From the NCBI RefSeq assembly GCF_900176135.1, contig NZ_FWWW01000077.1, forward strand, positions 1 to 64,000: a stretch of 64,000 bases of DNA, read 5' to 3'. Position numbers and translations under genes: made by a program. The DNA comes from Hymenobacter roseosalivarius DSM 11622 (GTDB lineage Bacteria; Bacteroidota; Bacteroidia; Cytophagales; Hymenobacteraceae). The first letter of the stretch is position 1. Every line of letters starts with the position of its first letter. Below, piece after piece: positions 23,163 through 36,826 of the stretch. The notes under the pieces are model-generated. The model searched no databases. It had not been told where the DNA came from and saw only the letters and a program-made list of their open reading frames with translations.

Positions 23163-25160
23163 ATGCGCGCACTAAACCTGCCCTCGTTCTCATCTGGTCG
23201 ATTTCTGTTACTGTGGAGCTGCTTGCTCAGTCTGTTTGCCGCTGTGCCGGCTCAAGCGGCAGCGGAAGATACGCTGGTAATGCAGCCATCCGGCGCCGAC
23301 TTCTTCATCGATGGCTCCTATTATAGTGTGCTGGAAGATCCTTCGGGTCGGCTAACGATACATGACGTGCGCCGCCCGGACAGGGCCAGCCAATTTGCCC
23401 CCTCCACCGGCGCACCTAACATGAGTAACACGAATTCGGCGTATTGGCTGCGCTTTACCGTGCGCAACGACGATCCTTCGGATACGCACTGGTACCTCGA
23501 CTTATTCGACTCTCACATCAATGACGTCCGGTTTTTTCAGCCTACCGCTACTGGCTACCGGCAGTTTCATACCGGTGCCGATCTGCCTTTCGTTACCCGA
23601 CCCCATCCCTACAAAGACTTTCTGTTTGACCTGCCCTTACCGCTGGGCCAGACCCAAATGTACTACCTGCGCTTAACGTCCAATTCCAAGACGAGCTTCC
23701 GCGCCATGATGCGCAATGAGCCGGTGCTGCTCACTCATTTTCAGGCCCAATACGGCTTGCTGGGGGGCTTTTATGGGGTGCTCTTCATCATGGTAGTGTA
23801 TAATCTGTGCATTTACCTTTTTATTGGCGAGCAAACCTACCTGCGCTACGTGCTGTACGTGCTGAGCTGCAGCCTCCTGTTTTTATCGGAAGATGGGCTG
23901 GGCTTTGAGTATGTATGGTCTGACTTGCCGGGGCTTAATCACCTAATCAATGCCGGCGCCCCCGTGCTGCTGCTCTTCACCTTCATGCACTACGCGCGCG
24001 GGTTCCTCGATACTGCCCTGCGCGTGCCCCGCCTCGACTGGTGGATTCGGCTGGTGGGCGCCCTGAGCGTAGTTCTGCTGCTGGCAGATATAATAGTAGT
24101 GCGCTCGGGCTTCAGCTTTTGGCTGTATCTCTTGCCCTACTGTCTTATTTATTATGCCGCCGTGCTGGTGTATCAGCAGGGACTACGGGCGGCGCGCTAT
24201 CTTTTGCTGGCTCACGCGCTGGTAGCCGTCAGCCTGGTTTTCCTCATTACCCGCAAGCTTGGCATCGAATTTCTGAACAACCACTTCACGGTGTACAGCA
24301 TGAACGCGGCGTTTGTGGTGGAAGTGACCATCTTATCGTATGCACTGGGCGAAAAGATCAAGGGCATTAAAGATGCCCGACTGGCCGTGCAGGCGCGCTT
24401 AGTTAAGCAGCTTCGCAAAAAGCACCTGGCCCAAGACCGCCTTGTCGAGCAGCTCCAGCAAAACCAGCAGCTCAAAGATCAGCTCAATTCAGAGCTGGAA
24501 GCGCAGGTAGCCCGCCGTACCCAGGAGCTAAGCCAGCAAAGCGAAACCATAGCCGCCCAAAACCGCGAGCTGGTACGGGCTAATGGACTCTTGGCCCTGC
24601 AATCGGCTGCCATTGAGAAGCTTAATGCCAACCTGCAGCATGATTTGCAGCAGGCTCAAACCGCCCGGGTCTTGGCCAAGGAAGTAGATTTCGGCGAGTT
24701 CAGCCAGATCTATCCTGACAAAGATGCCTGCCTGAGCTATTTGGCTGACCTGAAGTGGGCAAATGGCTACCAGTGCCGCAAGTGTGGCTACGAGAAGTAT
24801 TGCGCCGGCCGCGAGCCGCACGCGCGGCGCTGCACCCGCTGCCGCTACGTGGAGTCAGCCACCGCCTACACTATGCTGCAGAAGTGTAAGTTCTCTATTG
24901 TCAAGGCTTTGTACGCTGTGTTTCTGATTAATGCCCACCAAGGCAACTACTCTTCCCAGGAAATGTCGCGGCTGTTGGACCTGCGCCAAGCTACTTGCTG
25001 GAGCTTTAGTCAGAAAGTAATGGAAGCCATGCGCCGCCGCCGCCAATCTCTTGACTACGAAATAAACGAAAGCTGGACCCACATCTTACTCGACGCGACC
25101 AGCGAGACGGAGGAAGCCTCCGAATCTGACTTTTCCGCCTCGCTTTCTCAAAAAGTATGA
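23163..25160 (+). CDS. 7TMR-DISM receptor fused to an IS1595-type transposase zinc ribbon
   Basis: A 665-residue membrane receptor. Residues 1-35 are a signal peptide. Residues 36-190 are the extracellular 7TMR-DISMED2 beta-sandwich (YWLRFTVRNDDPSDTHWYLD). Residues 197-396 form the seven-helix 7TMR-DISM core. Residues 400-505 are a long coiled coil. Residues 516-625 resemble the N-terminus of IS1595/ISXO2 transposases: C538-X2-C541 and C557-X2-C560 form a zinc ribbon, followed by a helical part (YSSQEMSRLLDLRQATCWSFSQKVMEAM) like the transposase helix-turn-helix. The DDE catalytic domain is absent and the tail is acidic. In known DISM proteins this end usually carries a kinase, GGDEF or LytTR output, so DNA binding by the ribbon is a likely output (inference). 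ATG at 23163 is chosen because it starts the signal peptide; the frame is open further upstream. It is followed by the GH3-SusCD locus. Confidence 0.85.
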   Translation: MRALNLPSFSSGRFLLLWSCLLSLFAAVPAQAAAEDTLVMQPSGADFFIDGSYYSVLEDPSGRLTIHDVRRPDRASQFAPSTGAPNMSNTNSAYWLRFTVRNDDPSDTHWYLDLFDSHINDVRFFQPTATGYRQFHTGADLPFVTRPHPYKDFLFDLPLPLGQTQMYYLRLTSNSKTSFRAMMRNEPVLLTHFQAQYGLLGGFYGVLFIMVVYNLCIYLFIGEQTYLRYVLYVLSCSLLFLSEDGLGFEYVWSDLPGLNHLINAGAPVLLLFTFMHYARGFLDTALRVPRLDWWIRLVGALSVVLLLADIIVVRSGFSFWLYLLPYCLIYYAAVLVYQQGLRAARYLLLAHALVAVSLVFLITRKLGIEFLNNHFTVYSMNAAFVVEVTILSYALGEKIKGIKDARLAVQARLVKQLRKKHLAQDRLVEQLQQNQQLKDQLNSELEAQVARRTQELSQQSETIAAQNRELVRANGLLALQSAAIEKLNANLQHDLQQAQTARVLAKEVDFGEFSQIYPDKDACLSYLADLKWANGYQCRKCGYEKYCAGREPHARRCTRCRYVESATAYTMLQKCKFSIVKALYAVFLINAHQGNYSSQEMSRLLDLRQATCWSFSQKVMEAMRRRRQSLDYEINESWTHILLDATSETEEASESDFSASLSQKV

Positions 25161-25592
25161 TATTTCATAGAAGCATCGAGCCAGGTTATAAGAGTTAGAG
25201 AGCAACATTCCGTAGTCTTTCTTTGAAAGGGACGAGTTATCTTTCTGCTATTCATTTCTTCTTCCATAAGCACCGGAGTAGCAAGGCTATAAGAAGCAGT
25301 AGTATAAGGCGGTAACTATTTTGCTTTGCCACTAGACTTTATAGTTTTTAGGAGGAAACGGCCTGAAAAGAGGGTAACAAGCAATTTATTCCGAAAAAAT
25401 TCTTTGTACTCCACTTTTTTTCATTGTTTTTTAGCCGTTACCTCTTTTCTCCAACTGAGGTCAACTAAAGCGCGGAAGCCTGCAAATGGCTCTGTCTTAC
25501 GTGTGCTGTAAGTGTATAACTAGAAATAATCTTGCGCTTAAAAACTTCATTCTGAGGCAGTGGGGGGCTTTTTAGCCTTGCGTTTTCAAAAC
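25161..25592. other. AT-rich gap before the GH3 gene
   Basis: No convincing gene. It holds a 15-base word (25294-25308, AAGCAGTAGTATAAG) that recurs at 33617-33631 upstream of the decayed GH16 fragment, and a copy of the G6C word at 25562-25568. A short plus-strand frame at 25326-25511 has no recognisable content. Confidence 0.5.
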
Positions 25593-25627
25593 AAGGACGG
25601 ATATATTTGAGAAAACATCCCGTCCTT
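25593..25627 (+). promoter_or_regulatory. Promoter and possible operator of the GH3-SusCD locus
   Basis: AAGGACGG (25593-25600) and CCGTCCTT (25620-25627) form a perfect 8-base inverted repeat around a -7 box TATATTTG (25602-25609). The ATG of the GH3 gene follows directly at 25628. The leader would be very short. The symmetry around the promoter suggests a binding site for a dimeric regulator (inference). Confidence 0.5.
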
Positions 25628-28111
25628 ATGAGAATACCTGCTTCCTTTTTACGGGTATCTTTTCCTTTCAATATAGGAGCTGCGTCGGCTCGTGGTCTTT
25701 CTCGGATCGGCCTGCAAGGTCTTACGTTCGGGGCGTTGCTTGCTACAAATCAAGGTTGTCAGCGGGCGGGTACAACTGCTATTATAGCCCCAGCGACTAC
25801 CGTTACTGCTACAACTCAGTCTGTAACTTCTTTTAAGCCTGCACCCGTGAGTGAGCGGGTGCGCGCGCTACTTGCGCAAATGACGTTGGAGGAGAAAATT
25901 GGGCAGATGACCCAACTCTCTAATACTACTATTAATAATACCGGGCAGCAAAAGGATATAACCTTAAATTCTGCCAAGCTGATTCCGCTGATCAAGCAGT
26001 TTTATGTCGGCTCATTTCTGAATGGGGAGGCCGTAGACCCAGCGCAATGGGCCGCGTATTCAGCCGCTTTGCAGCGAATTGCCATGCGCGAGTCGCGCCT
26101 GCATATTCCTGTTATCTATGGCATTGACCACATGCACGGGGCCAGCTACGTGTCCAAGGCGGCCATCTTTCCTCATAACTTAAACCTGGGGGCCACTTTT
26201 AACCCTGAGTTTTCCCGCCAGGCTGCTCGCGCCACGGTGCTTGAGTCAGCTGATCTGGGGCATCATTGGGTATTTGCGCCGGTTCTGGACTTGGGCGTGA
26301 ACGCGCAGTGGCCTCGCTTATATGAAACTTACGGCGAAGACCCCCTGGTAGCCTCTGTGCTGGGCGCTGCCTTTGTGCGGGAGCTACAGGAGAACAAGGA
26401 AATTGCCCCTTATAAAGTAGCGGCCTGCGGCAAGCACTTTCTGGGCTATTCTGATCCGCGTACCGGCTGGGACCGCACCGTGGCGGAGATTTCTGATCAG
26501 CGTATTGAAGAGTTTTTCCGTCCTTCTTTTCAGGCCGCAATCGATTCAGGACTGAAGAGCATCATGATTAACAGCGGCCAGATCAATGGGGAGCCGGTGC
26601 ACGCCTCGCGTCGCATTCTCACCGATCTGCTGCGCACCAAAATGGGCTTTCAGGGCGTGGCCGTCACCGATTGGGAAGATATTATACTCTTAGTGCGCAT
26701 CCAGAAAGTGGCTGCCAACGAGAAGGAGGCCACGTTTACGGCCATCGACGCGGGCGTGGACATGGCCATGACGCCCTACACGACAACGTTTTGCACGCTG
26801 GTAAAAGAGCTGGTGCGAGAAGGCCGTCTCACCGAAGAGCGCATCAACCTTTCGGCGGGCCGGGTGCTACAGATGAAGGAGGACATAGGCTTGTTCGACA
26901 ACCCCATGCCGCGCACCGACCGCCTCAGTCGGATTGGCGACCCCGCCCTGAAGCAGCAAACGGTGGAGGCCGCCCGCGAGTCCATCGTACTGCTCAAAAA
27001 CATGAACAACCTACTGCCTATCGCAGCTTCCAAGGTAAAGCGGCTATTGGTTGTCGGTCCGTCCGCCGACTCCCGCGCTAACCTGGCCGGTGGGTGGACA
27101 CTGGCATGGCAGGGACGAAAAGAGGAAGAGTATCCTCAAGAAGTTCTGACTATTTACGCGGCTTTAAAAAAGGAGTACCCGAACGCCCAGGTTGAAACCG
27201 TAGCCTACCGTGATGCGGCTGGTGCGCTGGCTTTGGCCCGCGTAACTGCTGCTGCTCGCCGCGCCGATGCCGTTGTCATGGCTCTCGGCGAGCGGCCCTA
27301 CACGGAAGGATTAGGTAATACCAGCGACCTGACGCTGCCCGATGACCAACTGCAATTGGCTCGGGCAGTGCAGGCCGTGGGTAAACCCTCGGTGCTGGTG
27401 GTAATAGGAGGGAGGCCCAGCATTATTAGGGCCGTGGCCAATGGCTCGGGGGGCATTTTGTGGGGCGGACTGCCAGGCTTTGGCGGTGGGCAGGCCATTG
27501 CTGAAATTATCAGCGGTAAGGTGAATCTCAGTGGTAAACTGCCCTTTACTTATCCGCAGTTTGCCGGTCACTTCTCGCCTTATCACCACGATGACAATGA
27601 GAATAGCCTGGAGCTAAGCGACTTCGGGGCAGGCTTCGAGAACCGGGGGGCAAAATACAAGGCCTCCATGCTTACCGAGTTTGGCCAGGGCCTGAGCTAT
27701 ACTACTTTCCGCTACAGCGACTTAACGCTAGCTAACTCAGTGCTCAGTGGTAATGCCACCCTGCGGGCTACCGTGCGCGTGACCAACGCTGGCACTCGCG
27801 CCGGTAAAGAGGTTGCGCTGTGGTTTCTGACCGATGAGGTAGGCCGTATGACGCGCCCCGTGCGCCTGCTCAAGCATTTTGAGAAGCAGGACTTCCAGCC
27901 CGGCCAAACCCTCGAGCTGGCCTTCGAGATTCAGCCCCAGCGCGACTTGACCTACCCCGACGCCGAGGGCCGCCGCCAGCTCGAGGACGGCTACTTCACC
28001 CTGCGCGTGGGCGACCAGGTCCGGCGTTTCCGCTACGCCGGGGCTACGGCCTCCAGTGCCCGGTCGGGGCGGGCTGCGGGAGCCAGCAAGGGCTCTGCGC
28101 CTTCACCATGA
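25628..28111 (+). CDS. Family 3 glycoside hydrolase (beta-glucosidase type)
   Basis: An 827-residue periplasmic or secreted enzyme with an N-terminal export signal. The GH3 N-domain is at about 80-420 with GKHFLGYSDPRTGWDRT and the nucleophile motif GVAVTDWEDI (Asp348). The alpha/beta C-domain starts near SIVLLKNMNNLLPI, and a fibronectin type III-like domain follows (about 690-810). The family removes terminal glucose or xylose from beta-linked oligosaccharides and fits the SusC/SusD genes downstream. The last 20 residues are Ala/Gly/Ser-rich and lie beyond the domain. ATG at 25628 replaces a TTG 21 bases upstream, since that TTG overlaps the promoter box. Confidence 0.93.
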   Translation: MRIPASFLRVSFPFNIGAASARGLSRIGLQGLTFGALLATNQGCQRAGTTAIIAPATTVTATTQSVTSFKPAPVSERVRALLAQMTLEEKIGQMTQLSNTTINNTGQQKDITLNSAKLIPLIKQFYVGSFLNGEAVDPAQWAAYSAALQRIAMRESRLHIPVIYGIDHMHGASYVSKAAIFPHNLNLGATFNPEFSRQAARATVLESADLGHHWVFAPVLDLGVNAQWPRLYETYGEDPLVASVLGAAFVRELQENKEIAPYKVAACGKHFLGYSDPRTGWDRTVAEISDQRIEEFFRPSFQAAIDSGLKSIMINSGQINGEPVHASRRILTDLLRTKMGFQGVAVTDWEDIILLVRIQKVAANEKEATFTAIDAGVDMAMTPYTTTFCTLVKELVREGRLTEERINLSAGRVLQMKEDIGLFDNPMPRTDRLSRIGDPALKQQTVEAARESIVLLKNMNNLLPIAASKVKRLLVVGPSADSRANLAGGWTLAWQGRKEEEYPQEVLTIYAALKKEYPNAQVETVAYRDAAGALALARVTAAARRADAVVMALGERPYTEGLGNTSDLTLPDDQLQLARAVQAVGKPSVLVVIGGRPSIIRAVANGSGGILWGGLPGFGGGQAIAEIISGKVNLSGKLPFTYPQFAGHFSPYHHDDNENSLELSDFGAGFENRGAKYKASMLTEFGQGLSYTTFRYSDLTLANSVLSGNATLRATVRVTNAGTRAGKEVALWFLTDEVGRMTRPVRLLKHFEKQDFQPGQTLELAFEIQPQRDLTYPDAEGRRQLEDGYFTLRVGDQVRRFRYAGATASSARSGRAAGASKGSAPSP

Positions 28112-28196
28112 CCATAACGTGGCACTGACCCTGGTGGTCGGTGCGGACGAGTTGCTTTTTCCCAGTGAATTCCCAGCTTACTCACCTCTACCCATT

Positions 28197-31100
28197 ATGC
28201 CCTTGAATCCCTACCCATCTTTCTTTCAAAGAGTCATGCTGCTGACGGCCTGCGGGTTGCCAATGGTAGTGGCTCCCGCCCTGGGAGGCCGGAATTTGCC
28301 CCGCCGCCCCGCCGCGACCCTGCAAACGCCGGCCGACGTGCCCGTGTCGGGCCGCGTGACCCAGCCTAATGGCGAAGGCCTGCCGGGAGTGACTGTAATC
28401 GTGAAAGGAACCACGACCGGTACCTCAACGGCCCTCGATGGCAGCTTCAGCCTCGTGGCGCCCGAAAACAGCGTACTGGTTTTCAGCTCAGTGGGGTTTG
28501 TGCGTCAGGAAGTTCCCGTGACGGGAACTATGACCAGCCTGGCCATTCGTCTGGTCGAGGACACGCAGGCCTTAAATGAAGTAGTGGTAGTAGGCTACGG
28601 TACGCAGGAACGCCAAAGCGTAACGGGGGCCGTGTCCTCGGTTTCGGCCCGCGAGGTTGCGGCGCAGCCCGTGGCCAACCCGGCTCAGGCCATCCAAGGC
28701 CGGGCAGCCGGTGTAACTGTTATTTCTAACTCCGGGGCACCGGGCGGCTTGGGCGGAACCTCTATCCGGGTGCGGGGAATTACTTCAGCCGGCAATAACA
28801 ATCCGCTGTTCGTGGTAGACGGGTTTCCGCTGCCATCGGATGGCAACGGCAACGAACTCAGTTCTATTAACCCAAACGATATTGAAAGCATTGACGTGCT
28901 GAAGGACGCCTCGGCCACCGCCATTTATGGCGTGCGGGCCGCCAACGGCGTTGTTATTGTCACCACCAAACGCGGCAAGGCGGGCACCTCCAACGTCAAT
29001 CTTGATGCCTACGTGGGCACCCAAAGCGTTTGGCGGAAGGTGGGGTTGCTCAATGCCCAGCAGTACGCCGAGCTCAACAACGAGGCGCGTACCAATTTCA
29101 ATACACAGTTTCCGAACAATACTCCCCTTGCCCTTAACCCGCGCTTTGACTCGCCAGCCAAAATAGCGGCTCTGCCGTCCACCAACTTCCTGGACGAAAT
29201 TTTTCGCCCAGCCAAAATTCAGAACTATGCTATTTCGGCAACGGGGGGCAGCGAAAAGGCGCGCTACGCCGTGAGCGCGGGCTACTTCCAGCAGGATGGC
29301 ACCATCATTAACTCCAGCTTCCAGCGGTTTACGCTGCGAACGAACGGTGAAGTCCAGCTAAATAAAGTATTGAAGGTGGGCAGCACGCTCGGGCTTAGCC
29401 ACCAAGACGAACGGCCGCTGCCCAACGAGAACGGCGAGGTAGGCGGCCCCATTCAGCTGGCCCTGCAGGCACCGCCGTTCGTACCGGCCTACAACCCCGA
29501 TGGCAGCTTTTACGAGTACACCGCCGCCGATAACTTTGGGGAGGAGAACCCCGTAACCGCCGCGTTGCGGCCCATCCTGAAGAACAACCGCAACCGCCTC
29601 ACTTCCACGTTCTACGCCGAACTGGAGCCCCTGAAGGGCTTGCGCCTGCGAACCAACATCGGGGCTGACCTACAGTTTAATCAGGGTGACCAGTTTTACC
29701 CTTCTATTGACGGATCTACCAGATACCGGCCTGCTAATTCCTCAGCCAACAGCAGCGCCAACTACAACCCTAGCTACCTGATTGAGAATACGGCGGCATA
29801 TGACCGGCTGTTCGGCACCCAGCACCAGGTAAACCTGCTGGTCGGGCAATCGGCCCAGCAGTTTGACTTCTTCTATTTGGGCGGCAGTCGGACTGGCTAC
29901 ACCAACAACACGCTCCAGATTCTGGACAGGGGTCCAATTAACGCGCAGATCAATAACTTCGGTGGCAATGGCCGCAGCCGGTTGAACAGCTACTTTTCCC
30001 GGGTCAACTATGAGTTTGCCGGCAAGTACCTGCTCTCGGCTACGGCTCGTTATGATGGCTCTTCGGCCTTCGCACCGGGCAGAAAATACGGCTTTTTCCC
30101 TGGCGTATCGGTGGGCTGGCGCTTGTCGGAGGAAGGTTTCCTGAAGGACGTCAGCTACCTGAACAACCTGAAGCTGCGGGCCGGCTACGGCCGGGTGGGT
30201 AACCCACTCAATGCCGGCACTTTCGGCTACCTCCCCACCATCAACTCCGGCCCGAGCACGGGCTACGTGTTCGGGACAGGTGCCCAAAATGCGAATATTG
30301 GGGGGGTGCCCACCCGGCTGCCAAACACCGATTTGCGCTGGGAAAACAATGAGCAGTATAACCTGGGTATTGACTTTGGGGTACTGCAAAACCGCGTCAC
30401 CACCTCAGTTGATGTGTATCAGCGCACGTCGCCAAATCTGTTGCTCAATGTCCCGGTGTCGCGGGTGTCGGGCACCAGTGACGCTATTGCTACCAACGCA
30501 GCCTCCGCCCGCAACCGCGGCGTAGATCTATCTGTGACCACCAATAATTTCGTGGCTGACGACCAGGGGTTCAGCTGGTCTACCAGCTTGAACCTCAGTG
30601 CCTACCGCAGCGAGGTGACGTCGCTTGGCGAGGGACGGCCCTTCAACGGACAGGGCATTCGGGGGGGGCAAACCCTGGTGCGCTACGATAAAGGCCAGCC
30701 CTTTGGGTCTTTCTACGGCTTTGTAGCCGACGGCCTCTTCCAGACGGCGGATGAGCTGGCCGCGCTGGATGCCCAGTCGCCCACGGGCCGCTACCAAACT
30801 TCGGGCACGGCCCCGGGAGATATCAAATTCAAGGATTTGAACGGCGATGGCGTAGTCAACGGGAACGACCGGGCCTTTATTGGTAATCCCAACCCTAAGT
30901 TCACCTATGGCCTGAACAACACCCTCAGTTTCAAGGGATTTGACCTGAACGTGTTCCTGCAGGGCTCACAGGGCAACGATGTGTACAACCTGAATCGCTA
31001 CTACCTCGATGGGGGACTGGCCGCGGCTACTAACGCCGGTACTATTGCACTGGAGCGCTGGACCGGTCCTGGTACCAGCAACTACATTCCCCGGGCAGTC

Positions 31101-31388
31101 GCCAATGACCCTAATGAGAACAACCGCGTCTCCAGCCAGTACGTGGAAGACGGTTCCTACATGCGGGTCAAGCTGCTCACGCTGGGCTATACGCTGCCTG
31201 CCTCGCTGCTGAGCACGCTGCATAGCCAGCGTATCCGGCTGTATGTAAGCTCGCAGAACCTGCTCACTATCACCAACTACACTGGGTTCGACCCCGAGCT
31301 GGGCAACCAGGGTGGTAGTTTCGGTGTTGACCGGGGCATCTACCCGCAGTCGCGTGTCTTCCTGGCAGGTATCAACCTGGGCTTTTAG
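28197..31388 (+). CDS. SusC/RagA-family TonB-linked outer-membrane transporter
   Basis: A 1063-residue protein of the SusC class. The N-terminal carboxypeptidase-like domain is at about 50-130 (VSGRVTQPNGEGLPGVTVIVKGT). The TonB box/linker region has LNEVVVVGYGTQERQSVTGAV. The plug contains IRVRGITSAGNNNPLFVVDG and DVLKDASATAIYGVRAANGVV, and a 22-strand barrel ends in SRVFLAGINLGF. It imports oligosaccharides across the outer membrane with energy from TonB. The frame is open upstream into the GH3 3' end; ATG at 28197 is chosen because it starts the export signal. It pairs with the SusD gene 62 bases downstream. Confidence 0.95.
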   Translation: MPLNPYPSFFQRVMLLTACGLPMVVAPALGGRNLPRRPAATLQTPADVPVSGRVTQPNGEGLPGVTVIVKGTTTGTSTALDGSFSLVAPENSVLVFSSVGFVRQEVPVTGTMTSLAIRLVEDTQALNEVVVVGYGTQERQSVTGAVSSVSAREVAAQPVANPAQAIQGRAAGVTVISNSGAPGGLGGTSIRVRGITSAGNNNPLFVVDGFPLPSDGNGNELSSINPNDIESIDVLKDASATAIYGVRAANGVVIVTTKRGKAGTSNVNLDAYVGTQSVWRKVGLLNAQQYAELNNEARTNFNTQFPNNTPLALNPRFDSPAKIAALPSTNFLDEIFRPAKIQNYAISATGGSEKARYAVSAGYFQQDGTIINSSFQRFTLRTNGEVQLNKVLKVGSTLGLSHQDERPLPNENGEVGGPIQLALQAPPFVPAYNPDGSFYEYTAADNFGEENPVTAALRPILKNNRNRLTSTFYAELEPLKGLRLRTNIGADLQFNQGDQFYPSIDGSTRYRPANSSANSSANYNPSYLIENTAAYDRLFGTQHQVNLLVGQSAQQFDFFYLGGSRTGYTNNTLQILDRGPINAQINNFGGNGRSRLNSYFSRVNYEFAGKYLLSATARYDGSSAFAPGRKYGFFPGVSVGWRLSEEGFLKDVSYLNNLKLRAGYGRVGNPLNAGTFGYLPTINSGPSTGYVFGTGAQNANIGGVPTRLPNTDLRWENNEQYNLGIDFGVLQNRVTTSVDVYQRTSPNLLLNVPVSRVSGTSDAIATNAASARNRGVDLSVTTNNFVADDQGFSWSTSLNLSAYRSEVTSLGEGRPFNGQGIRGGQTLVRYDKGQPFGSFYGFVADGLFQTADELAALDAQSPTGRYQTSGTAPGDIKFKDLNGDGVVNGNDRAFIGNPNPKFTYGLNNTLSFKGFDLNVFLQGSQGNDVYNLNRYYLDGGLAAATNAGTIALERWTGPGTSNYIPRAVANDPNENNRVSSQYVEDGSYMRVKLLTLGYTLPASLLSTLHSQRIRLYVSSQNLLTITNYTGFDPELGNQGGSFGVDRGIYPQSRVFLAGINLGF

Positions 31389-31450
31389 CGCTACGGCGCT
31401 GAGCCCCTTACCCCTCAACTTGTAATAGTATGTTACACGCACGATTTACC

Positions 31451-32899
31451 ATGAAGAAGAAAACCCTAGGCACTGCTCTGCTCTCGCTAGGGCTATTGGC
31501 GGGCTGTAGTAAAGACTACCTCGACTTGCAGCCCCGCGACGCCGTTTCGACCGAAGTGTTTTACAAGACGCAGGCCGATGCCATTCAAGCCACTACCGCC
31601 GCGTATGCGCAGCTCCAGAAGCAGGGGCTCTATGGTCACTCCTTATGGGCCATGGATATGATGGCAGATAACTCTTACGTGGGCGGCGGCGGCGCCGCCG
31701 ACGGCATCGAGTTTCAGCAGCTCGATAATTTCGCCATTCCGGCCAGCAACCCGGTCATCACCAATCTGTGGCAGCGCACATACCTGGGTATAGGCGCCGC
31801 CAACCAGGTGCTCACGCGCGTACCGGCCATTACCATGGATGAGGCCATCAAGGCCAGGAGCCTGGGCGAGGCCGAGTTTCTCCGGGCCTTATACTACTTC
31901 TACCTGGTGCGGGCCTACGGGGATGTGCCGCTGGTACTGACTCCCGCACAAAGCCCGGCGGAAGTAGCTAACATCACCCGTACCCCGATGGCGGAGGTGT
32001 ATGCCCAGATTGTAAAAGACCTGACCGCTGCCATTCCCAAGCTACCCGCGTCCTACACCGGCAACGACGTGGGGCGAGCCACGAAGTGGTCGGCCACGGC
32101 CTTGCTAGCGAAAGTATACCTCACCATGGGCGATATGCCCAATGCCGCCACCCAGGCCCGCGCGGTGCTTGCAGGCTCCGGCAAAAGCCTGTGGCCTAAC
32201 TACGGTGACAACTTCAACGTGGACAAGGAAAACGGGCAGGAGTCGCTGTTTGAGGTGCAGTACAAAAGCGGCCTGAACACCTTCAGCCTTGATGGTCCGG
32301 GTTCGGCGATTAACCAATTCTGGGGGGCCCGCTTCTATGGTAGTCCTTTTGTGGTGTCGGGAGGGGGCTACGGCTTCAATATTCCCGAGAAAGAGTTCGT
32401 GGACGGCTACGAAGCCGGCGACCTTCGCAAGCCGGTAACCGTGTTCGTGCCCGGCGACAAATACCCGGACGGCCAGGTGCAGCCCGCCAGACTGCAGGGC
32501 GCACCTAATGGCTTCAACGTCCGGAAGTTCTACGCTGGCCAGCTCTCGACCGTCTGGGATTCGCCGCTCAACGTGCCGGTGCTGCGGCTGGCTGAGGTGT
32601 TCCTGATTCTGGCCGAAGCCGCTCCTGGTTCGGCCGATGGTCTGGCCGCCATCAACCGAGTGCGGAATCGGGCTGGTCTGCCTGCTCTGACTTCCGTTAC
32701 CAAGGAGGCTGTTCTGAAAGAGCGCCGCTACGAGTTAGCCTTCGAGATGGACCGTTGGTACGACCTGAAGCGCACCAATACGCTGCTAACCAACCCACAG
32801 CTGATTGCTAAAGGCATCAAGCCCTTCAACGTCGTGCTGCCCATCCCACAGGCGGAGCGCGACGTCAACCCGAACCTGGCTCAAAATCCAGGTTATTAA
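31451..32899 (+). CDS. SusD/RagB-family outer-membrane lipoprotein
   Basis: A 482-residue surface lipoprotein that lids the SusC channel and captures glycans. The lipoprotein signal MKKKTLGTALLSLGLLAGC fixes Cys19, and YLDLQPRDAVSTEVFYKT is the usual SusD start. TPR-like helices follow, and the C-terminus has RNRAGLPALTSVTKEAVLKE and RRYELAFEMDRWYDLKRT, the family signature. It is complete, in contrast to the fragment at 34.1 kb. ATG at 31451 starts the lipoprotein signal; an upstream ATG at 31430 is also in frame. A terminator follows 72 bases after the stop. Confidence 0.95.
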   Translation: MKKKTLGTALLSLGLLAGCSKDYLDLQPRDAVSTEVFYKTQADAIQATTAAYAQLQKQGLYGHSLWAMDMMADNSYVGGGGAADGIEFQQLDNFAIPASNPVITNLWQRTYLGIGAANQVLTRVPAITMDEAIKARSLGEAEFLRALYYFYLVRAYGDVPLVLTPAQSPAEVANITRTPMAEVYAQIVKDLTAAIPKLPASYTGNDVGRATKWSATALLAKVYLTMGDMPNAATQARAVLAGSGKSLWPNYGDNFNVDKENGQESLFEVQYKSGLNTFSLDGPGSAINQFWGARFYGSPFVVSGGGYGFNIPEKEFVDGYEAGDLRKPVTVFVPGDKYPDGQVQPARLQGAPNGFNVRKFYAGQLSTVWDSPLNVPVLRLAEVFLILAEAAPGSADGLAAINRVRNRAGLPALTSVTKEAVLKERRYELAFEMDRWYDLKRTNTLLTNPQLIAKGIKPFNVVLPIPQAERDVNPNLAQNPGY

Positions 32900-32971
32900 G
32901 CTGGCTGCCGCCCGCGCAGGTTAGAGCGTATAGAATAAGATAAGGTGCTTATCGGCCTGCTACCCTAGTTT

Positions 32972-33007
32972 AAAAAAAGCCCTCTGATTCGTTCAGGGGG
33001 CTTTTTT
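32972..33007. terminator. Terminator of the GH3-SusCD locus
   Basis: A7-GCCCTCTGA stem, loop, TCAGGGGGC-T6. It ends the plus-strand operon. Confidence 0.8.
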
Positions 33008-33178
33008 GGCTTTAGAACAACCCTTTCAACTGACCGACTTCGGCTGTGATTGGGTAGCGCTTCTGGATATGGAAAGCGCACTCAGCTCCGCTATTTTATA
33101 AAAAAGCTTATGGCTGCTTTATGAGGCGGCGGGAGACTTTTTCAGGTGGAATGCGCCGCTAAGGTAGCCTGGCGGGCG

Positions 33179-33590
33179 CTAGGGGGCGGCTGTTGCGGCC
33201 GGCTGCTGGCAGCGCTTGTGCTCCTGCACGTAGAAGGCCATCTCCTGATGATATTGCACCACGTTCCACTTGGGTTGAAGCTGCCGGATGTTGCCCAGAA
33301 ACGTTTGGGCCAGGGCTGCGTTGGGGCACACGTTTAGCTCGTCGGGGTGGGCATCGGCGTCGTGGGCGGCGATCAGGAAGGTTTCCAGGTTAGTGGTGTC
33401 CTCGGCAGCAGGGCCGTGCAACTGGTTGGGAGCCGTCCGTTACTGGGGCGCGAACCGGTTGCCGGCCCGAAAGCGAGCCACCAGAGCAGCCGGTTTGGCG
33501 GCTACTGGTTTGGCTTTGTGGGCCAGCCGGGCAAGGGTGACTCCGCTGCTGGCCATATGCACAAGGGAGCCCGCAGATACCTGCATCCAC
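33179..33590 (-). pseudogene. Decayed reading frame, unknown family
   Basis: On the minus strand a frame of 80 residues (33179-33421) has protein-like composition (NVCPNAALAQTFLGNIRQLQ, FYVQEHKRCQQPA). Upstream in the same frame, past one stop codon near 33440, another protein-like stretch continues (SLVHMASSGVTLARLAHKAK). The end of this sequence (YVQEHK plus QQPA) recurs in degraded form at 35017-35090. This looks like a broken gene and a second partial copy. I do not recognise the family. Confidence 0.35.
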
Positions 33591-33779
33591 GCGCCCAAAG
33601 GAAAATAACTTATAGCAAGCAGTAGTATAAGTTTTTCATGAAAAATGTAAAGGAATAAAAACAGAGATTAATAGCCTGAAAAGGTAATAAAAAGCGCCTG
33701 TCACGCTGCTTCTAATTGGTTTTTTTCTGTGATTGATGCAATATTTATTACATAGTTATGTCCTGATCGCTTTATTTCA

Positions 33780-33945
33780 CCATCTCGCCCTCCAGCGTTT
33801 CGCCTTACCCATTCGACAACAAGTTTTACCTAATCCTGAACGTAAACGTAGCCGTGGGGGCGATATTGACGGCAACCTCGACGCTAACACTACCTTCCCT
33901 AAGCAAATGCTGGTAGACTACGTGCGGTATTATCAGTACAAATAA
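33780..33945 (+). pseudogene. Frameshifted C-terminal fragment of a GH16 glucanase
   Basis: One frame reads SPYPFDNKFYLILNVNVAVG and, after a one-base shift near 33857-33861, the next reads GDIDGNLDANTTFP then KQMLVDYVRYYQYK and a stop. Together these match the last strand region of GH16 beta-glucanases/laminarinases (FYLILNVAVGG...FPQ.M.VDYVRVYQ). Only about 55 residues remain and the catalytic part is missing. The shift lies in a run of five Gs where six would restore the frame (GTG GGG GGC GAT). It is part of a decayed polysaccharide locus with the SusD fragment downstream. Confidence 0.75.
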
Positions 33946-34130
33946 GCAAAGACAAATGTAGCTTATATACCCTCTGGGCGATTTTTTCGGAATGGCTCGC
34001 CGGGTTTACAATCATGAGTTCTACTTGCTCCAGACTGCTCAATTCAAGTTGGCAGTAAGTGTCAGAGCCGGTTCCGTTGCGTTTGTGGTGCGGGCCGGGC
34101 TTTTGATTGTAGCACGGCTCCTGCCAAGGT

Positions 34131-34439
34131 GACCTGAACCTGGCGGAGGCTCGCGCCCGTGTAAATGGCCCAACTTACCCTCAGGCCTTAGCTCTCCTCA
34201 ACGCCGTTCGCACCCGCTCGGCCGGCACGCCTTATACGCAGGCTACTGTAAATAATATCCTGCTGGAGCGCCGTATTGAGTTCTTGGGCGAGGGTACTCA
34301 TAACATGGACATCATGCGATTGAACGCGCCTATTCTCGCCATGAGCTCCGTGGGGGCCGTAGCACCATCCGATCCGCTTTACGTGTGGCCAATTCCCTCC
34401 GGCGAGCTGCAGGCAAATGCGCTGATGACCCGCAACTAG
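34131..34439 (+). pseudogene. C-terminal fragment of a second SusD/RagB protein
   Basis: An open frame of 102 codons without a start. DLNLAEARARVNGPTYPQAL and ALLNAVRTRSAG are followed by the family signature ILLERRIEFLGEGTHNMDIM and, at the end, VWPIPSGELQANALMTRN. This is the last fifth of a SusD protein; the N-terminal four fifths and the lipoprotein signal are gone. It differs in sequence from the intact SusD at 31.5 kb. A strong terminator follows at 34458. Confidence 0.85.
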
Positions 34440-34457
34440 GAAGGTCGAAGTTATTTC

Positions 34458-34494
34458 AAAAAAGCCCCCCAGTATTGGACTGGGGGGCTTTTTT
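34458..34494. terminator. Strong bidirectional terminator
   Basis: A6-GCCCCCCAGT, loop, ACTGGGGGGC-T6. It follows the SusD fragment, so it was probably the terminator of the lost locus. Confidence 0.85.
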
Positions 34495-34540
34495 CTGGGT
34501 ATGCTCACCAACAGCCCTCAAAGGTCTTTAGCTTTGGGGT

Positions 34541-34585
34541 AATAAAAAGCCCCGGCTACTCAGTAAGTGGCCGGGGCTTTTTATT
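34541..34585. terminator. Terminator of the small basic protein gene
   Basis: Perfect 16-base arms, AATAAAAAGCCCCGGC and its complement, with a 13-base loop. It serves the minus-strand gene at 34603-34755. Confidence 0.85.
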
Positions 34586-34602
34586 GAAACTGCGCGACTC
34601 GC

Positions 34603-34755
34603 TTAGTGGGCGTGAATGCGCTTGCGTTTTTGGATGCGACGCTGTTGTGCCTGCTTAACCCGGCGATACAGCGCCTCTAGAGGCGTTTCTGCTTGTCGCG
34701 TGGTGGTGGCTGCATCATTCAGCTCTTCGACCTTTTTTGATTTGGTAGGCTTCAT
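34603..34755 (-). CDS. Small basic protein, 50 residues
   Basis: A 50-residue protein rich in Lys, Arg and Gln. It starts MKPTKSKKVEELNDAATTTR and ends with YRRVKQAQQRRIQKRKRIHAH. The second half should form one strongly basic helix, which suggests nucleic acid or ribosome binding (inference). It looks real because it has its own -7 box (TACATTTG, minus strand, 34824-34831), a 68-base leader and a perfect terminator right after the stop. I do not recognise a family. Confidence 0.65.
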   Translation of the reverse strand: MKPTKSKKVEELNDAATTTRQAETPLEALYRRVKQAQQRRIQKRKRIHAH

Positions 34756-34823
34756 AAGGGAGGTATTTAAGTACTTATCAACGGTAGAGCCCCCAAGAAG
34801 GATACACTTCCCCGTTGAGTTAA

Positions 34824-34831
34824 CAAATGTA
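34824..34831 (-). promoter_or_regulatory. Putative -7 box of the small basic protein gene
   Basis: The minus strand reads TACATTTG (TAnnTTTG), with a 68-base leader to the ATG at 34755. Confidence 0.5.
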
Positions 34832-35016
34832 AGGCGTTTTTATTCAGGCTTCTACTTGGTGATTTTTAATCATCATTACGCCTGTGTCTTTTCATAGAGG
34901 AAGAAATAAGGCTGGCTTAATCAGTGAGGTTGAAAGCGAGCAATAATATGTTAGGGCTTTTACGCCCCCTGTGTAAGTACGCTTGCTAGATAGCTGTAAG
35001 CTAGAATTAGGAAGGA

Positions 35017-35090
35017 TGTGGCACTACGGCTGGCTGCTGCCGACACTTGTGCTCCTGTACATACACTGGCCTCACGAACTCATGCGCCAA
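35017..35090 (-). repeat. Degraded partial copy of the 33.2 kb frame
   Basis: On the minus strand the codons FVRPVYVQEHKCRQQPA can be read, matching the end of the decayed frame at 33179 (FYVQEHKRCQQPA). At the DNA level the two stretches share CTTGTGCTCCTG and GCTGGCTGCTG-like words. The rest of the gap from 34832 to 35125 is AT-rich and holds nothing I recognise. Confidence 0.45.
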
Positions 35091-35125
35091 TAGGTTAACA
35101 TATAGATTTTTAGGCTGTTATGCCA

Positions 35126-35164
35126 CACAAAAAGCCCCCAGCAATGTGCCGGGGGCTTTTTGTG
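35126..35164. terminator. Terminator of the DEAD-box helicase gene
   Basis: CACAAAAAGCCCCC, loop, GGGGGCTTTTTGTG. It lies 16 bases after the helicase stop on the minus strand. Confidence 0.85.
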
Positions 35165-35179
35165 AATGAGCTTTTGGGT

Positions 35180-36826
<1,647 letters not shown>

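Follow-up and report, generated by a model that had tools for sequence, protein, structure and literature searches.

The question raised by this locus is how a membrane receptor that ends in a transposase-like zinc ribbon might act on the glycan genes lying directly behind it. The window analyzed here is the whole 64,000-nucleotide stretch of Hymenobacter roseosalivarius DNA; all of its features described below lie on the + strand, and coordinates given with no locus handle refer to it. The receptor gene (23163 to 25160) is an uninterrupted frame that runs from the ATG at 23163 to the stop codon at 25158-25160 and encodes 665 residues. Pfam placed a 7TMR-DISMED2 periplasmic sensor at residues 52-179 (23316 to 23699; E 9.8e-34, 116.7 bits against a cut-off of 22), the best fold match of which was the periplasmic domain of RetS (3jyb, E 1.8e-6), and a 7TMR-DISM_7TM membrane region at residues 197-397 (23751 to 24353; E 1.6e-35, 123.3 bits against a curated cut-off of 29), where the AlphaFold2 model has helices. 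The same model, built with 58 homologues, has a mean pLDDT of 85 (85.4), and residues 511-630 are mostly above 90; it predicts a long cytoplasmic helix or coiled coil at residues about 400-510 (24360 to 24692), with helices at 374-463 and 488-502 and a low-confidence stretch at 466-498. A periplasmic N-terminus and a cytoplasmic C-terminus are consistent with the model and with a signal-like helix at residues 11-26. Human Wntless was also returned as a fold match of the DISMED2 and 7TM part (23316 to 24353; E 1.8e-5 to 4.6e-4), with low TM-scores.

The C-terminus carries a Zn_ribbon_IS1595 domain at residues 519-562 (24717 to 24848), with C538-X2-C541 and C557-X2-C560, that was detected in the whole protein with E 4.2e-6 and 27.1 bits against the Pfam cut-off of 25.4, reached 30.2 bits when the C-terminus was scanned by itself, and is modelled with pLDDT >93. 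It is followed by a three-helix, helix-turn-helix-like segment at residues 575-631 (24885 to 25055; AlphaFold2 helices 579-591, 598-605 and 609-627), which matches positions 2-61 of the 215 positions of the NCBIfam IS1595 transposase profile NF033547. The score lies under the whole-protein cut-off, as is to be expected because the receptor has no nuclease: the chain stops at residue 665, just past the NF033547 match, and the ISXO2-like DDE domain is absent. Scans with Pfam and NCBIfam detected no histidine kinase, receiver or AraC-type HTH, and the other known DISM outputs are also missing. Modelled separately, the C-terminal domain gave a pLDDT of 90.6 and a pTM of 0.83; a fold search of the domain against the PDB returned no significant match. 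The initial annotation had proposed, from the letters of the window, a DISMED2 sensor, DISM seven-helix region, coiled coil and IS1595 zinc ribbon with a helical stretch and no DDE nuclease, and Pfam, NCBIfam and AlphaFold2 bear out this architecture, with the cysteines at the positions it had given (538, 541, 557 and 560).

The relationship to transposases is broader than the zinc ribbon. A profile made from 58 C-terminal domains aligned with DDE-bearing IS1595 transposases over 125 columns (hhalign, 100% probability, E 2.8e-46), and the same profile recovered DDE-bearing IS1595 transposases from whole genomes. The comparison with transposase zinc ribbons that had been suggested as a check was thus significant both by Pfam, above the cut-off, and by hhalign. 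Judged from the profile alignments, the homologue of residues 575-631 in IS1595 transposases is the stretch just ahead of their DDE nuclease. A tree with few columns and an arbitrary root was built from 58 C-terminal domains of regulators and 23 further proteins, most of them transposases; in it the regulator domains formed one group (support 99/99) with the transposases outside and one stand-alone 137-aa protein within. The simplest reading of these alignments would be a single recruitment from an IS1595 transposase, followed by loss of the nuclease and then by expansion. The receptor has no nuclease and its locus is fixed, the gene staying beside SusCD in 23 of 24 Hymenobacteraceae loci, and therefore it is not a transposase; the mobility expected of an IS1595 transposase, with terminal inverted repeats and a variable location, was not found. 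The stand-alone protein (locus L213 1197-1607 = L046), which has a zinc ribbon and comes from a different class of the phylum, may represent a split-off or ancestral-like form.

Several other IS1595-like sequences were seen in the course of these searches. The source genome holds a complete 309-aa IS1595 copy (G000:C97) and a second element (G000:C90 12240-12584; L008) whose 177-aa frame ends within the nuclease. Genome G360 encodes about ten IS1595-like proteins of 310-340 aa (at L042, L054, L056, L057, L059, L060 and L061) in which the DDE motifs look eroded, with TTGW or TNGW in place of the transposase TDxW; these are possibly another domesticated family.

Of 120 Hymenobacter genomes, about 103 encode receptors of this architecture, as do many other Bacteroidota, and several copies per genome are common. 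Searching with the C-terminal part gave high-scoring full-length relatives in nearly all sampled Hymenobacter genomes; many other members of the order had relatives too, often with several to 12 matches per genome, and in the class and phylum a smaller share of genomes did, Pedobacter caeni among them. At the level of order and class, a smaller part of the matches were transposases of about 300 aa. All 58 full-length relatives that were scanned contain both DISM domains, and 55 of them the zinc ribbon at E<=0.01. The four zinc-ribbon cysteines are invariant in 86/86 aligned sequences, R608, T611, W613 and K618 are near-invariant in the helical part, and mean column identity is highest in the zinc ribbon (0.60), followed by the segment behind it (0.56) and the sensor (0.39). 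Public records call the family only "7TM diverse intracellular signaling domain-containing protein," and we found no report of a fusion between a DISM receptor and an IS1595 zinc ribbon in open-licence papers.

One could envisage that signalling by the DISM protein runs through its sensor and coiled coil while the tail, which does come from a transposase, is an inert passenger of a past insertion. We consider this scarcely credible, given that the tail forms a single ancient clade over several families, has its four zinc-ribbon cysteines in all 86 sequences, is better conserved than the sensor, and is found in a protein with no other known DISM output. Two related explanations were rejected as well: a recent transposase insertion into a DISM gene, by the age of the clade and the invariant cysteines, and a chance match or one-off fusion, by the broad distribution, the cysteines, the single clade and the transposase homology.

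We then turn to the genes beside the receptor. Behind it lie a GH3 glycoside hydrolase (25628 to 28111; Pfam Glyco_hydro_3, E 1e-63), for which the ATG at 25628 was chosen as the start, the longest ORF beginning at 25607; a SusC-like TonB-dependent transporter (28158 to 31388, exact start uncertain; Pfam Plug, TonB_dep_Rec and CarbopepD_reg_2); and a SusD-like glycan-binding lipoprotein (31448 to 32899; Pfam SusD-like_3 E 5.1e-32 and SusD_RagB E 7e-28), so that the downstream GH3, SusC and SusD named by the initial annotation are confirmed by Pfam. The polysaccharide locus of the window ends after SusD; the stretch behind it (32900 to 35180) lacks the PKD surface protein and GH16 of the close relative L084.

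About 90 receptor loci, picked by similarity of the C-terminus with neighbours playing no part, were mapped. SusC was one of the three genes that follow the receptor on its strand in 23/24 loci of Hymenobacteraceae and in 23/67 others, compared with 4/239 for control genes drawn from other parts of those genomes; for the non-Hymenobacteraceae set against the controls, p was 2e-13, an upper bound on surprise, since the Fisher values take related genomes as independent and overstate significance. The SusC-positive loci belong to at least six families, Pedobacter included. The concern that the fusion might be a one-off is answered by these data, which describe one old clade across several families and orders of Bacteroidota that recurs beside SusC-SusD far above control.

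The neighbouring enzymes vary with lineage and are mostly glycan-active. Hymenobacter loci have GH5-CBM6, GH3, GH16 and the PKD surface protein, and other lineages GH30 (one family), PF10091 (glycoamylase-named), GH67 with GH10, and GH2 with GH5; receptor copies away from SusCD have neighbours that include GH81, GH20 and a PfkB sugar kinase. At one locus (L162 9657-13482) two tandem receptor genes, the stop of the first overlapping the start of the second, precede a GH81 gene. Outside the Hymenobacteraceae, two thirds of the copies lack a SusC within three genes, and some paralogues adjoin genes for RND pumps, for a PEP carboxylase or for housekeeping functions, so that SusCD control does not describe the family as a whole. 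The paralogues at L121, L126 and L135 are divergent from an RND efflux operon (OEP and an AcrB-type pump, Pfam-checked in L121), which suggests that RND-linked receptors have other targets.

If the receptor controls the adjacent genes, sites for it might be found between them. Three conserved boxes are common to 55 Hymenobacter loci, in the stretch that runs from the receptor stop codon to the start of GH3 or SusC. Box A (25416 to 25438, consensus TTTttTcaTTGTTTTTTAgccgn) and box B (25499 to 25519, consensus gCGTGTGcnGTAAGtGTAtAa), both candidate operators, exceeded the shuffled maximum in 54/55 and 55/55 loci, respectively, and box C (25578 to 25611), the putative promoter of the GH3-SusC-SusD unit, did so in 53/55. 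Box C reads TTGC...TAnnTTTG (-33 / -7), which we take to be a Bacteroidetes-type promoter. A scan for the sigma-70 consensus gave matches at chance level only, as expected because Bacteroidetes promoters are involved. Boxes A and B resemble each other only loosely, and the sequence separating the boxes has diverged, yet their start-to-start spacing is held at 81-84 bp from A to B in nearly all 55 loci (the exceptions are one of 69 and one of 80) and at 78-80 bp from B to the promoter. The binding region put forward by the initial annotation, 25593 to 25627, did not hold up: it overlaps the -7 element of the promoter, and its inverted repeat occurs in only 4/55 relatives. This repeat is not conserved; the conserved candidate sites are those at 25416 to 25438 and 25499 to 25519.

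We used a strict pattern of box B plus promoter to survey the 120 Hymenobacter genomes. It had 92 matches, and a reversed-pattern control had 0. Seventy matches lie just downstream of a receptor gene and 20 upstream of one, within 12 kb and on the same strand; of the remaining two, one is on another contig of a receptor-bearing genome and one is elsewhere. The source genome has the pattern once, at the receptor locus. The pattern is present in 75 of about 103 genomes that have the receptor gene and in 0/17 that do not, an association that could reflect co-inheritance of the whole locus, as genomes without the gene may be without the locus too. In 20 Hymenobacter genomes box B and promoter recur as a second copy 4-9 kb ahead of the receptor gene (L088 1638-1747; L091 14408-14517); in L088 it is 90 bp before a GH16-CBM6 gene, and in L091 some 650 bp before a GH5 gene, after which the receptor gene comes next.

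The box B core may extend beyond Hymenobacter. The top 8-mers found de novo upstream of SusC in other families include GCGTATCA, AAGCGTAT and TTTAAGTG, the first two of which correspond to the box B core AAG[TC]GTATAA, and the density of the core in non-coding DNA was 0.32 per kb near the receptor gene against 0.06 in control stretches, both from small counts. Another pair, AATCGATT / CAATCGATT, which is LacI-type or catabolite operator-like, was also strongly enriched upstream of SusC in non-Hymenobacter loci. Insertion-sequence ends were considered as a source of the boxes and rejected, as the terminal repeats of a few related elements are unlike A and B; this comparison is weak, most elements having no clear repeats.

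The conserved blocks could also belong to a structured RNA or leader element rather than being DNA sites for the receptor. Their position is in the receptor gene's 3' region, and the sequence separating boxes B and C includes a stretch that resembles a hairpin and has A and T tails. However, no Rfam match came near the gathering score, RNAalifold gave no consensus structure, covariation lends no support, the hairpin region is barely more stable than shuffled sequence (-7.6 vs -5.4, sd 2.7), and the blocks are upstream of the promoter; we regard an RNA element as highly improbable. As the conserved promoter-upstream boxes occur only beside the receptor gene, the case for a regulatory role is stronger.

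What binds the boxes is a separate matter. Zinc ribbons are often mediators of protein contacts, and boxes A and B might be occupied by another, unlinked regulator while the receptor controls the locus through protein contacts, for instance with RNA polymerase or with that regulator; in keeping with this, the distance of the boxes from the -33 element, about 80 and 160 bp on its upstream side, is large for a simple activator. Against such a binder, the receptor neighbours examined include no further regulator gene, the strict box module is confined to genomes with the receptor gene, and the entire transposase unit of zinc ribbon and helix-turn-helix is kept, together with R608, T611, W613 and K618. 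On balance this arrangement appears rather unlikely, and we favor direct binding, in which the receptor C-terminus would contact DNA with boxes A and B as its probable sites.

The reading that we consider quite likely, on the strength of homology and conservation, is that the receptor, anchored in the membrane, regulates the linked glycan locus as a one-component system by means of a domesticated transposase DNA-binding module. The DISMED2 periplasmic domain would sense a piece of glycan that the SusCD system has released or imported; in NicD, DISMED2 has been linked to carbohydrate binding (PMC8544897). The signal would then pass through the seven helices and the coiled coil to the cytoplasmic zinc ribbon and helix-turn-helix domain, derived from an IS1595-family transposase, which would bind the candidate boxes A and B and so change the firing of the GH3-SusC-SusD promoter. 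The receptor would most likely be an activator rather than a repressor, and the neighbouring enzymes suggest a ligand of the beta-glucan type in Hymenobacter. It also seems reasonably probable, from sequence comparison, that a large family of seven-helix sugar receptors are solo transcription regulators with a module taken once from an IS1595 transposase and a readable operator core, AAG[CT]GTAT[AC]A and variants.

A variation on this scheme is that regulated proteolysis in the coiled coil releases the C-terminal domain as a soluble DNA-binding protein. The predicted break in the long helix at 466-498 and the 137-aa relative of the C-terminal domain are compatible with such a step, but neither a protease gene nor a cleavage motif was identified, and similarly placed coiled coils in other DISM and signalling-helix proteins transmit signals without cleavage (PMC1592074). 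Release by cleavage strikes us as distinctly improbable.

If the one-component reading is true, many Bacteroidota glycan loci would be under a type of regulator that annotation has missed, a further class of polysaccharide-locus regulator would stand beside hybrid two-component systems and ECF-sigma/anti-sigma pairs, and the family would clearly exemplify, in bacteria, the DNA-binding domain of a transposase being recruited a single time and then expanding into a set of receptors. The receptor class is already known; apparently, as far as sequence can tell, the output is new and the large family has been left unnamed by annotation.

The receptor resembles 7TMR-DISM receptors such as RetS, LadS, NicD and RgsP in its DISMED2 and DISM 7TM regions, by Pfam and fold, and in the coiled coil that leads to a cytoplasmic output. 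Whereas the known outputs are kinase, GGDEF/EAL, PAS and other enzyme or signalling modules (PMC6107284), that of the receptor is a transposase-type zinc ribbon and helix-turn-helix. With IS1595-family transposases it shares the N-terminal zinc ribbon and the next helical segment, homologous over the 125 aligned columns, but it has neither the DDE nuclease nor any sign of mobility, sits behind a 7TM region, and has been vertically kept at one Hymenobacter locus. Control of glycan loci is known to involve hybrid two-component systems, ECF-sigma/anti-sigma pairs and catabolite repression (PMC10766802). Like the regulators of Bacteroidetes polysaccharide loci, the receptor gene lies beside SusCD and glycoside hydrolases, and its product is presumably a membrane glycan sensor tied to transcription; unlike the hybrid two-component and ECF-sigma/anti-sigma systems, it is one polypeptide with no phosphorelay and no sigma factor, and both its sensor and its predicted DNA-binding module are different. 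CadC and ToxR are membrane-bound one-component regulators that are single-pass and carry a winged helix on the N-terminal side. The receptor is like them in combining a sensor, a membrane anchor and a DNA-binding domain, the last by homology, in a single chain, but it differs from them in having seven transmembrane helices and a C-terminal domain derived from a transposase.
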